Below are positions 1,193 to 39,356 of a DNA stretch of 39,376 nt, piece by piece (position 1 is the stretch's first letter; the number at the start of each line of letters is the position of its first letter). Origin of the DNA: Candidatus Choladousia intestinigallinarum (GTDB taxonomy: Bacteria; Bacillota; Clostridia; Lachnospirales; Lachnospiraceae); assembly GCA_018712605.1 (NCBI GenBank), contig DVGR01000276.1, positions 1 through 39,376 on the forward strand, read 5' to 3'. A model generated the notes under the pieces. It saw nothing but the letters and a program-made list of their open reading frames with translations, did not search any database and was not told where the DNA came from. The translations under genes and the position numbers were made by a program.

Positions 1193-1969
1193 TTAAGAAT
1201 GCCGCCAGAATTCTTGCAGCGGGGCGGCTTGGATGCCTCTTTCCTTAAATGTGCGGCGGATCCGGCGAACCAGAGATAAAGCGGAGGGACTGTCGCCGTG
1301 GACGCAGACGGAGTCCGCTTTCACGGAGATCTCCTTTCCAGTAACGGCTTTGACTGTGCCCTTTTCCACCATCTGAATGACCCGGCGGACAGCTTCTTCT
1401 TCGTCTGTGATCATGGAATTAGGATGGCTTCTTGGAACTAAAGAGCCGTCCTCTTCATACGCCCGGTCCGCAAAGACTTCCCTGGCAGCTTTCAGACCGT
1501 TTTGGGAGGCGGCACGGATCAGTTCGCTTTGTGCCGGCGCCAGGAGGATCAGATTACTGTCCACAGCGGCGATTCCCCGGCAGATGGCATCCGCCACAAG
1601 AAAATCTTTGACTGCCATGTTGTAGAGAGCGCCATGAGGCTTTACATGCTGCAGGGGGATATTTTTGGCATGGCAGAAGGCAGTCAGAGCGCCGATCTGA
1701 TATTCTACCAGCGCAGTGATTTCGGGGGCAGGAATACTCATATTTCGTCTGCCGAAGCCCACGAGATCCGGGAAGCCTGGATGCGCTCCTACGCTTACCT
1801 GGCTGTTCTTTGCGGCTTCGACGGTTTTTTCCATAGTCAAAGGGTCGGAAGCATGAAAGCCGCAGGCCACGTTGGCGGAAGTGATCAGAGGAAGAATCTG
1901 CTCATCCCTGCCGCAGACATAATTCCCAAAGCTTTCGCCCAAATCACAGTTCAGATCTACTGTATACAT
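1193..1969 (-). CDS. pxpA: 5-oxoprolinase subunit A (LamB/YcsF family)
   Basis: PxpA is one of three subunits of the prokaryotic ATP-dependent 5-oxoprolinase, which opens pyroglutamate to glutamate in the cytoplasm. The 258-residue protein opens with MYTVDLNCDLGESFGNY and carries ANVACGFHASDP, VGAHPGFPDLVGFGRR and HVKPHGALYN, the signature blocks of the LamB/YcsF family. I chose the ATG at 1969 because GGAG sits 7 bases upstream and the family consensus starts here; a longer frame reaches 2017 but would run into the mobile element. It is separated from the other subunits (pxpB, pxpC) by DUF1445 and by the inserted element at 1994-2187. Length is normal (about 250). Confidence 0.95.
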   Translation of the reverse strand: MYTVDLNCDLGESFGNYVCGRDEQILPLITSANVACGFHASDPLTMEKTVEAAKNSQVSVGAHPGFPDLVGFGRRNMSIPAPEITALVEYQIGALTAFCHAKNIPLQHVKPHGALYNMAVKDFLVADAICRGIAAVDSNLILLAPAQSELIRAASQNGLKAAREVFADRAYEEDGSLVPRSHPNSMITDEEEAVRRVIQMVEKGTVKAVTGKEISVKADSVCVHGDSPSALSLVRRIRRTFKERGIQAAPLQEFWRHS

Positions 1970-1986: not shown

Positions 1987-2194
1987 TTAATATGATGTTG
2001 GGGTCAAAAGACCTCAACCATGATGCCTACGGATTGTTCCGTGCTGCGCACTCCCACAATCCTGTCCAATATTCGCATATCGTGGGATATACATCCCACT
2101 TTTATGCTCATATTGGGGCGGGTCCCAAGGTCTTTCGCCCACCTATGAGCACGCTCATGTGGGCTTAGGCCTTTTGACCCTGGCATCTTAATAT
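1987..2194. mobile_element. MITE-like element (copy A, 194 bp) with 7 bp target duplication
   Basis: The element spans 1994-2187. Its ends read GATGTTGGGGTCAAAAG (left) and, on the other strand, GATGCCAGGGTCAAAAG (right), so they are imperfect terminal inverted repeats. It is flanked by a perfect direct repeat TTAATAT at 1987-1993 and 2188-2194, the expected footprint of transposition. It encodes no transposase; a 60-codon frame inside is not credible as a gene. The interior holds several nested inverted repeats: GCCCAC...GTGGGC near the right end, GTGGGAT/ATCCCAC in the middle, and GGATTGT/ACAATCC around 2031-2063. The stop codon of the DUF1445 gene lies within the right target repeat. It separates DUF1445 from pxpA within one operon. 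A related 74 bp copy lies at 5719-5792. Confidence 0.8.
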
Positions 2195-2973
2195 TTAAGG
2201 TTTATATTTTTAATATCAGTAATAAACATATGTCCCGGAGCGTGGGTGATGGCGAAGGATGGCTTTGAATCCATCAGGACGTTCTGAGGAGTGACGCCGC
2301 AGGGCCAGAAAACAGGCACTTCCCCCGGGTAAATGGTTACGGCCTCGCCAAAATCTGGCTGGGCAATATCCCGTATTCCGATTGCGGAAGGATCACCTAT
2401 GTGGATCGGCGCCCCATGGACCTTCGGCATTTCGCCAGTGATCTGTACAGCCTTTGGAACCAGCCTGTGAGGCAGGGGGCGCATGCTCACTACCATATTT
2501 CCGTGAAAAACACCGGCTGGAGTACAGGGGATATTTGTCCGGTACATGGGCACGTTTTTATCTTCTTGAATGTGTCGGACCGGAATTCCCGCATCCAGAA
2601 GATCTGCCTCAAAAGAAAAGCTGCAACCGATGAGAAAGCTTACAAAGTCTTCCCGCCAAAAATTCACGGCTTCTGGATATTCTCCTATGAGAATCCCATC
2701 TTGGTAGACACGGTATAAAGGAATGTCCCTAGCGATATCAGAACCAGGGGCAGATTCAAAAAAACACCGGCTTCCTGTGTCGCTGACTTCCAGAAGGGGA
2801 CAGGATTTGGGATTTCTCTGGGTAAACAAAAGAAAATCATAGGCCAGTTCTTTAGGGAGAACCACAAGATTTCCCTGGGCATATCCAGGGCACATGCCGG
2901 CCGTAGGTCCGGTAAGTTCACCGTTTCGGATCATAAGCCTGACGTCTTTAGGGTTCATAGAGGATAGATCCAT
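2188..2973 (-). CDS. DUF1445 / YcsI-type protein, D-glutamate cyclase N-terminal-type domain
   Basis: A 261-residue protein of the DUF1445 (YcsI, 'putative hydro-lyase') family. Recognisable blocks are TAGMCPGYAQGNLVVLPKE near residue 25, LIGCSFSFEADLLDAGIPVR near residue 114, MYRTNIPC near 143, and VFWPCGVTPQ with AITHAPGHM near the C-terminus. In mammals DUF1445 is fused to DUF4392 in D-glutamate cyclase; here both halves are separate genes of one operon. Bacillus subtilis ycsI similarly sits beside the 5-oxoprolinase genes. AAAGGAG lies 6 bases before the ATG, and the start overlaps the end of pxpC by 26 bases, implying translational coupling. The stop codon is formed at the edge of the inserted MITE-like element. 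Confidence 0.88.
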   Translation of the reverse strand: MDLSSMNPKDVRLMIRNGELTGPTAGMCPGYAQGNLVVLPKELAYDFLLFTQRNPKSCPLLEVSDTGSRCFFESAPGSDIARDIPLYRVYQDGILIGEYPEAVNFWREDFVSFLIGCSFSFEADLLDAGIPVRHIQEDKNVPMYRTNIPCTPAGVFHGNMVVSMRPLPHRLVPKAVQITGEMPKVHGAPIHIGDPSAIGIRDIAQPDFGEAVTIYPGEVPVFWPCGVTPQNVLMDSKPSFAITHAPGHMFITDIKNINLKY

Positions 2974-5716: not shown

Positions 5717-5718
5717 AT

Positions 5719-5792
5719 GATGCCAGGGTCAAAAGGCCTAAGCCCACATGAGCTTGCTCATAGGTGGGCGAAAGGCCTTTTGACCTCAACAT
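5719..5792. mobile_element. Short MITE-like element (copy B, 74 bp)
   Basis: Begins GATGCCAGGGTCAAAAGGCC, identical for over 30 bases to one end of copy A (right end of 1994-2187, opposite strand), and ends with the complement of ATGTTGAGGTCAAAAGG. It forms a nearly continuous hairpin: GGTCAAAAGGCCT and GCCCACATGAGC pair with GCTCATAGGTGGGC and AGGCCTTTTGACC around a tiny loop. It looks like copy A with its central modules removed. No clear target duplication remains. It occupies the start of the pucR leader, ending 21 bases before the ATG. Confidence 0.75.
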
Positions 5793-5813
5793 TAAAAAAG
5801 AAGGAGGGATCAC

Positions 5814-6953
5814 ATGGAACTCCGTAAGCTTTGGAAAGAAGTGGAGAAGAGGTATCAGATGCATCTGGCAGCGGGGGAGAGAGGACTGTCAGGAGAAATT
5901 GACTGGGTACATATTATTGAATCCCTGCAGGTGGCGGAGTTTTTAAGAGGCGGGGAACTGGTGCTGACGACTGGGATGCAGGGAAAGGAAGAGCAGCTTC
6001 TGAAGCTTGGGAAAAAGCTGTGGCAGAAGGAAGCCTGCGGATTAGTCGTAAATCTTGGTCCCTATATAAAGGAAATTCCACAACCGCTTCTTGACTTTGC
6101 GGAGGAAAAAAATTTTCCTGTTTTTTCCATGCCCTGGGAGGTGCATCTGGTAGACGTAACCAGAACCATCTGTGTTATGCTGAACGAATACGACATAACA
6201 GAGAGAAAGCTCATAGAAGCGGTAGAGAATGCCCTGTATCACAGTCAGGTTCCCGAGATGTATCTGCCATATATGAAAAGGTTCGGTTATTCTGCTGATT
6301 ATAATTACCAGATTGCTGTCATGGACATAAAGCGGGCAAGCCAAGACTACAGCGAGAGAGGCAGGATTTTAAGAGCCGTGAGAGGGCTGTGCCAGGATAT
6401 GCCTGTGAGGCCGGTTTTGTTTTGGCAGGAAGAGCGGCTGGTGCTGCTGCTGGCAGGGGACAGTGTCCCTTACTGCAGAGAGATTGCCCAAAAAGCGGTA
6501 GCTCTGGGTGAACAGAGGAACTATGGGCTGCGGGCAGGCATAGGGCCGGTTGTAACTACTTTAGGATGTCTGCCAAGGACGTATGAACATGCCATGGGCA
6601 CCCTGGAGCTTGCCCGGAGAAAGCAGGAGAAGCTTCTTGACTATGAAGAAATGGGAGCTTATAAGATTATCATGGATGTTCAGGACAGGAAAATGCTTGG
6701 CCGCTTCTGCAACGATCTGCTGGGGGCTGTTATGGAGCAGGACTCCAAAAAGCAGACCGATTATATGGAGGTTCTCAGGGAATATATAGAGACGGGAGGA
6801 AGCGTCCAGGAGATGGCGGAGCGGCATTTCTGCCACAGGAATACTATTACCTATAAAATACAGAGGATAAAAGCCCTTCTAAATGTAGATTTAGATGATA
6901 TGACCAAAAGAATGGAAATCCTTCTGGCATTTCAGATTCTGGACTGTTTGTAG
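5814..6953 (+). CDS. PucR family transcriptional regulator
   Basis: A 379-residue cytoplasmic regulator with the PucR layout. The N-terminal PucR sensing domain (about residues 8-125, including LRGGELVLTTGMQG and ACGLVVNLG) is followed by a middle region and a C-terminal helix-turn-helix (about 320-375, GSVQEMAERHFCHRNTITYK then IQRIKALL). PucR-type activators control purine, amino-acid and related catabolic genes and often respond to a pathway metabolite. It stands divergent to the dat-pxp operon and directly upstream of the aminotransferase-liv operon, so it is the natural candidate regulator of both. AGGAGG precedes the ATG by 6 bases. Its leader contains MITE-like copy B. Confidence 0.9.
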   Translation: MELRKLWKEVEKRYQMHLAAGERGLSGEIDWVHIIESLQVAEFLRGGELVLTTGMQGKEEQLLKLGKKLWQKEACGLVVNLGPYIKEIPQPLLDFAEEKNFPVFSMPWEVHLVDVTRTICVMLNEYDITERKLIEAVENALYHSQVPEMYLPYMKRFGYSADYNYQIAVMDIKRASQDYSERGRILRAVRGLCQDMPVRPVLFWQEERLVLLLAGDSVPYCREIAQKAVALGEQRNYGLRAGIGPVVTTLGCLPRTYEHAMGTLELARRKQEKLLDYEEMGAYKIIMDVQDRKMLGRFCNDLLGAVMEQDSKKQTDYMEVLREYIETGGSVQEMAERHFCHRNTITYKIQRIKALLNVDLDDMTKRMEILLAFQILDCL

Positions 6954-24356: not shown

Positions 24357-24374
24357 GATGTTGAGGTCAAAAGG
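24357..24374 (+). repeat. Solo terminus of the MITE-like element
   Basis: GATGTTGAGGTCAAAAGG is the same end sequence as in copies A and B, without the rest of the element. It sits in the dnaE leader. Confidence 0.55.
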
Positions 24375-39246: not shown

Positions 39247-39356
39247 ATAAAAGCCAGTCTCGGTGAACGGACAGAAGGGCGCATGCGTTTAGCGCCGACC
39301 GAAGCGGAGCGGAGACTTGCGGGAGCACGCAGTGCGGAGCAATCCGTGGCTTTTAT
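39247..39356 (+). ncRNA. 110 nt three-way-junction structured element (candidate leader RNA or palindromic repeat)
   Basis: Perfect outer stem ATAAAAGCCA (39247-39256) with TGGCTTTTAT (39347-39356). Inside, arm 1 pairs GTCTC with GAGAC (39257-39261, 39312-39316) and includes CGGT/ACCG and GGCGC/GCGCC. Arm 2 pairs TTGC with GCAA and GCAC with GTGC (39317-39342). Arm 2 recurs with compensatory changes in the MITE-like copy A. I cannot assign it to a known riboswitch class. Confidence 0.55.

Follow-up and report, generated by a model that had tools for sequence, protein, structure and literature searches.

A Clostridiales-1 RNA as the probable body of a miniature transposable element sharing its ends with IS1182-like transposase elements

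The 194-bp element that separates two genes of a minus-strand operon in Candidatus Choladousia intestinigallinarum is, to judge from its sequence, very probably a MITE, a non-autonomous DNA transposon, with the structured RNA Clostridiales-1 (Rfam RF01699) as its body. It occupies positions 1994-2187 of the window, by which we mean the whole stretch of 39,376 nucleotides that was analysed, and the features discussed here are collected in Table 1. A first-pass annotation of this DNA had described an intact MITE-like element between perfect TTAATAT duplications, and inspection of the sequence verified both its coordinates (1987-2194 with the duplications) and its ends, which match those quoted at the time. 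It had also claimed that the right-hand TTAATAT provides the stop codon of DUF1445, which is so: the minus-strand ORF ends at 2188, and its TAA therefore lies inside that duplication. The interpretation as a MITE gains from recurring ends, from empty sites in relatives and from a transposase with matching ends; the element is short, has inverted ends and a fixed-length target duplication, is present in multiple copies and has an empty site between species. The identity with RF01699 was absent from that annotation.

Table 1. Positions of the element, its parts and its neighbours in the window.
Feature	Position	Strand	Basis
Left target-site duplication, TTAATAT	1987-1993		sequence
Right target-site duplication, TTAATAT, containing the DUF1445 TAA stop	2188-2194		sequence
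Terminal inverted repeat GATGTTGGGGTCAAAAG, RNA-sense 3' end, within the extra terminal hairpin	1994-2010	+	sequence, end search
Terminal inverted repeat GATGCCAGGGTCAAAAG, RNA-sense 5' end	2171-2187	-	sequence, end search
Clostridiales-1 RNA core (RF01699), closing stem P1 (GATGCC/GGCATC) and three hairpins	2021-2188	-	covariance-model match, folds, covariation
DUF1445 / D-glutamate cyclase family gene, upstream in the operon	2188-2973	-	Pfam PF07286
LamB/YcsF family gene, downstream in the operon	1193-1969	-	Pfam PF03746
Second family member, internally deleted	5719-5793	+	BLAST, Rfam, end search

The two ends of the element differ from each other (GATGTTGGGG versus GATGCCAGGG), and its arms form an imperfect inverted repeat (75% over 32 nt). 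With space for at most 64 codons it holds no transposase gene, the transposase itself being 533 aa long. Multiple internal hairpins had been noted, and the fold is strong: against dinucleotide shuffles, z is -8.0 for the minus-strand RNA, -8.5 for the plus-strand RNA and -7.9 for the element folded as DNA, and in each of the three cases none of 200 shuffles folded as well.

In an Rfam scan, the minus strand of the core matched the full RF01699 model (1-166 of 166) at 138.6 bits (E 5.6e-32), the gathering cut-off being 48 bits. The same genome (G000) holds 61 matches to the model at E <= 0.001, 48 of them above the cut-off and spread across many contigs, and none of 14 control genomes has one. 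BLAST with the element found 25 places in its own genome, the query included, seven of which are near full length at 92-100% identity (the focal copy among them, and one ending at a contig edge) and the remainder partial; the 17-bp end pattern occurs there 36 times at up to one mismatch, versus once for the reversed pattern. On these two counts the element stands above chance level. Across the order, with at most nine candidates scored per genome, RF01699 was found in 57 of 295 genomes and 26 of 130 genera, its own included, and 42 of these genomes exceed the cut-off. Weinberg et al. 2010 described the Clostridiales-1 motif, from Clostridiales and the human gut, as probably an RNA, and their Table 1 rates it 'n' for cis-regulatory (PMC2864571, in the parts consulted). 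The second family member in the window (RF01699 match at 5718-5857 of the plus strand, 48.2 bits) sits directly upstream of a PucR-type regulator gene (ORF 5814-6953, Pfam PF07905), just past a TATAAT-like sequence, so that one member of the family is found in the operon and another at the divergent regulator gene. Elsewhere in the window, a single perfect element end, GATGTTGAGGTCAAAAG, stands at 24357-24373, at the start of a 1168-aa ORF and downstream of a TATACT promoter-like sequence.

The copies speak for mobility. We screened for paired, inward-facing 17-bp ends 40-330 bp apart with at most four mismatches summed over the two ends, and the duplication test left out pairs starting with GGTC (an internal hairpin), pairs with more than four mismatches, copies flanked by less than 10 nt and, among the transposase loci, L145 and L156-L158. 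A perfect 7-bp direct repeat stands just outside the ends of 20 of the 36 distinct copies that remained, compared with 11 of 1260 mispaired left and right flanks; the other 16 have no perfect 7-bp duplication, and perfect repeats of 4, 5, 6, 8, 9 and 10 bp were found in 1, 0, 0, 1, 0 and 0 of the 36. The copy on contig C240 has an 8-bp repeat rather than one of 7 bp. The 20 perfect cases come from nine genomes (G000, G003, G006, G007, G012, G025, G030, G074 and G156), and 5 of the 12 copies in G000 are among them. By eye, 7-bp repeats are also present around three shorter G000 derivatives outside the screen (C243:11974, C81:28916 and C29:2166); the first two have an identical deletion junction, and these two insertions of one deleted form suggest that deleted forms transpose too. 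Locus L106 (G000 C243:13680-13725) is a mini-element of 46 bp with the 7-bp duplication ATATTTA, and the sequence just downstream of it resembles a cobalamin riboswitch. Among the own genome's listed end matches at up to two mismatches, inward-facing pairs on one contig that are too far apart for a MITE were also noted, such as C243:11947/13725 and window 1994/5793; these are the outer ends of two short elements.

The relatives supply the other half of the comparison. A DUF1445 protein is encoded in 21 of the 47 genus genomes, the own genome included, and past its stop codon LamB/YcsF comes next in 17 of the 20 relatives and another gene in two, G003 being non-syntenic; RF01699 was found at gathering score in none of the 20 loci. 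The nearest relative at the locus, G022 (82% DUF1445 protein identity), aligns at 762.5 with the joined, element-free flanks versus 683 with the filled site, and its junction, in what is a comparison between species, holds one TATTAA and no element. Searches for the terminal sequences and for sites without the element, both proposed in the first-pass annotation, were thus productive: the ends recur in the own genome and in relatives, and relatives have the empty site. The contrary picture, of a site filled in the relatives and of ends occurring nowhere else, is contradicted by both comparisons.

A transposase gene with matching termini, which that annotation had also suggested looking for, was found in related genomes and not in the element's own. 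The end pattern matched at up to one mismatch in 32 of the 47 genus genomes, and among the matches listed is an end pair 1875 bp apart in G063 that encloses a 533-aa protein with DUF772, DDE_Tnp_1_6 and DDE_Tnp_1 domains. Its best NCBIfam match is NF033551 (IS1182; E 2.2e-33), and since the score of 115.9 bits falls below the curated cut-off of 270 we call it 'IS1182-like'; this autonomous element is flanked by an 8-bp repeat. At E <= 1e-20 the transposase is present in four of the 47 genus genomes, one of them partial, and 43 have no match. In G067 and G007 it is likewise enclosed by matching ends, these copies showing no target duplication, and no other of the 47 genomes has as many end matches as these two (61 in G067, 93 in G007).

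A wider scan for the transposase, across public species genomes, took the best 80 loci, of which 54 were given to the end search; the 26 left out are mostly partial matches, and the G063, G067 and G007 contigs recur as three of these transposase loci. Both ends were found at up to three mismatches in 33 of the 54 loci, and with the reversed pattern in none of the 54; of the other 21, several reach a contig end and others have no such ends. The two-ended elements are mostly 1.83-1.88 kb long (range 1554-2110 bp). Ten have no flank on one side, and among the 23 in which duplications could be assessed, a perfect duplication of 7 bp is present in 11 (mispaired flanks give 2 of 506) and lacking in 12; one has 8 bp. 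The target signatures, symmetric by construction because they were pooled with their reverse complements, are A(.80)T(.93)nnnA(.93)T(.80) for the 20 MITEs and A(.82)T(1.0)nnnA(1.0)T(.82) for the 11 autonomous elements. MITEs and transposase elements therefore agree in their ends, in the length of the duplication and in the ATnnnAT target rule, and going by these sequence features the IS1182-like DDE elements are the likely source of transposase for the MITE.

No transposase of this kind was found in the own genome (an assembly 87% complete, in 279 contigs), nor did the twelve end-match contexts examined there include a transposase-bearing copy, and it is missing from seven of nine genomes checked, namely G156 and six members of the genus that each have between 13 and 53 end matches. 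The link between MITE and transposase is consequently drawn from ends and targets and not from co-residence in a genome; the MITEs look orphaned, or else transposase copies have been lost from fragmented assemblies. RF01699 at gathering score was found in none of 20 transposase loci in one set and in one of 20 in a second, where we read it as lying outside the insertion sequence. At L244:3230-3450 an RF01699 element (108.9 bits) adjoins an IS1182-like element at the right end of the latter, as if the two were neighbouring insertions. A search of a plasmid collection found no match to the element. A phage collection returned 19 records, which we do not take as evidence of a phage home, as all are unannotated 'Bacteriophage sp.' and the four examined are labelled UNVERIFIED faecal scaffolds. 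Those filed as MT837314.1, MT837347.1, MT837121.1 and MT837342.1 (L260-L263) contain copies 85-89% identical to the element, and the copy in the first has the perfect 7-bp repeat ATATTTT.

What, then, would such an insertion do to the operon? The element was said to lie between co-directional genes, and Pfam identifies minus-strand DUF1445 and LamB/YcsF on either side of it. The same minus-strand run also encodes CT_A_B, CT_C_D, aminotransferase IV and GLUCM-like_C proteins, and we take it to be a 5-oxoprolinase (Pxp)/D-glutamate operon; the element's RNA strand is the minus strand, which is the operon sense. LamB/YcsF starts with the ATG at 1969 on the minus strand, 17 nt in the gene direction from the left duplication, and the ribosome-binding-like sequence GAAAGGAG lies between the element and this codon. 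A simple scan of 1700-2600 found no intrinsic terminator on the operon strand, the terminator-like sites being on the plus strand only; the terminator and sigma-70 scans gave two hits each, close to the shuffle means of 1.1 and 1.2. Across 13 copies with GATG ends, the flanking genes are co/co in three, anti/anti in six and mixed or open in four, with no sense bias, as far as a crude ORF caller can weakly say.

We envisage that an IS1182-like transposase acting in trans cut at GATG...CATC, and that the element was inserted at ATATTAA where the DUF1445 gene ends, the target duplication restoring the stop codon there. With the stop regenerated, the insertion would have broken no gene. Co-transcribed in its RNA sense, the element would now form a folded spacer of 194 nt that separates LamB/YcsF from the D-glutamate-cyclase-family gene; the ribosome-binding-like sequence of LamB/YcsF is left intact, and at most translational coupling or mRNA half-life may be altered. 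The conservative reading is of a near-neutral insertion that kept both the stop codon and the ribosome-binding-like sequence. Copies whose divergence goes well beyond that of this insertion still keep the fold, so that the RNA, or the hairpins in it, more probably matters to the life cycle of the element than to the operon.

That fold can be followed in an alignment of 28 RF01699 cores picked for diversity, 14 from G000 and 14 from twelve other genomes. RNAalifold gave 26 pairs, 21 of them with compensatory change; paired cells make up 94.8%, where shuffles reach 76.1% and slid versions 30-44%, and the covariation score is 0.493 versus 0.160 in shuffles. None of 500 shuffles reached the real value on any of five fold measures, although two features of the procedure favour the fold: the cores were gathered by the RF01699 model, and the alignment that was scored is also the one that yielded the structure. 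In every one of the 28 cores the closing stem, which at the same time forms the outer sequence, is paired (three past one outer mismatch, the boundaries being those set by the model), even though by our reading it has 13 different sequences among them.

IS1182-type ends were seen only in subfamily A and its close kin. Subfamily B of G000 has no A-type ends, and in that genome TTTAC stands directly before 23 of 28 B copies, 0 of 13 A copies and 3 of 8 C copies. The 40 nt upstream of B copies fold with a mean z of -2.58 against shuffles (14 of 28 below -2), compared with a mean of -0.31 for A. Such an insertion habit resembles, on our assumption, single-strand, sequence-specific transposition; an IS200/605-type Y1 transposase was considered as the mover of B and set aside, none being found in the own genome by a search that was positive in 5 of 14 control genomes. 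Many B copies in G000 (such as L087, L090 and L097) lie within or downstream of the T-run of a terminator-like hairpin, and on contig C255 two stand head to tail, the second beginning at the TTTACTCT end of the first. Thirteen B copies of about 210 nt (such as L086, L087 and L088) have an extra hairpin block, GGCGCTGCGTGCCAGTGGCACGC..., before the last hairpin, in one of them with a base change. Subfamily C copies in G000 are often paired head-to-tail. Near the contig end, window 39249-39354 holds a deleted subfamily B copy that scores 33.6 bits, below the cut-off.

Considering that compensatory change extends to subfamilies whose ends and insertion habit differ, the RNA core looks, from these comparisons, older than the IS1182-type ends. 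Could the Clostridiales-1 fold even be an RNA module under selection, carried by more than one vehicle, A with IS1182-like ends and B with others? We hold this only tentatively and think it unlikely. If true, the RNA would serve the element, for example by binding a transposase or host factor or by masking the element in mRNA, and there would be a mobile structured RNA family in Lachnospiraceae and other families of the order.

The same covariation, with none of 500 shuffles reaching it, and the persistence of the core with 13 closing-stem sequences and in B copies without A-type ends might instead point to a functional, trans-acting small RNA, its inverted ends and duplications being incidental to gene copying. 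We consider this improbable: 61 matches in one genome, many of them truncated, and a patchy occurrence in 57 of 295 genomes of the order are typical of mobile elements, unlike the distribution of a conserved housekeeping RNA. One may also regard the repeats as ancient, immobile intergenic palindromes of the REP/ERIC type, spread by recombination without a transposase. Many copies are indeed diverged or partial, and the 43 genus genomes without a match to the transposase at E <= 1e-20 would suit such an origin, but exact 7-bp duplications around different targets in nine genomes, and transposase-bearing elements with the same ends and target rule, leave it the slimmest of chances.

A function tied to this very locus would require the element to regulate the 5-oxoproline/D-glutamate operon as an RNA specific to this site, acting as a cis leader or as an intercistronic processing signal, with no insertion at all. 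Its RNA-sense position in the operon and its strong fold would fit, as would the second derivative before the divergent PucR-type regulator gene. However, the element is missing from all 20 of the relatives' DUF1445 loci, the 61 matches are spread over many contigs of the own genome, the 13 GATG-end copies show no sense bias (in a crude view of their context) and the motif has its 'n' rating for cis-regulation (Weinberg et al. 2010, PMC2864571, in the parts consulted), so that we find this explanation very improbable. We thus return to a MITE with the Clostridiales-1 RNA as its body.

Such an element both resembles and departs from the systems already described. The core covers the entire RF01699 model; here, however, it forms the body of a transposable element, and an extra terminal hairpin supplies the second end, whereas the consulted parts of the catalogue (PMC2864571) hold no mention of mobility, ends or duplications for the motif, and give no function for the RNA. 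With the IS1182 family the partner elements share the DDE transposase domains DUF772, DDE_Tnp_1 and DDE_Tnp_1_6 as well as the best NCBIfam match, but they differ in their 7-bp duplication at ATnnnAT, and the MITE itself has no transposase; for ISPse1, a member of that family, we read the direct repeat in the tabulated part of PMC3281130 as one of 4 bp. Like other bacterial MITEs, the element is short, non-coding and multicopy, with inverted ends and a target duplication; its interior, however, looks unlike a plain deletion derivative of the transposase element and contains an RNA fold with compensatory changes. In the open-licence literature on Clostridiales-1, IS1182 and MITEs, as far as its consulted parts go, we found no link between the RF01699 family and a transposon.

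To conclude, at least one branch of an Rfam 'small RNA' family from gut Clostridia very probably consists of transposable elements, which have exact ends, follow a target rule and are matched by a clade of transposases. A mobile nature changes the annotation of the many genomic matches to RF01699, and it makes two questions testable: why does an element that is moved as DNA keep an RNA fold through compensatory change, and does the core switch between transposition systems?
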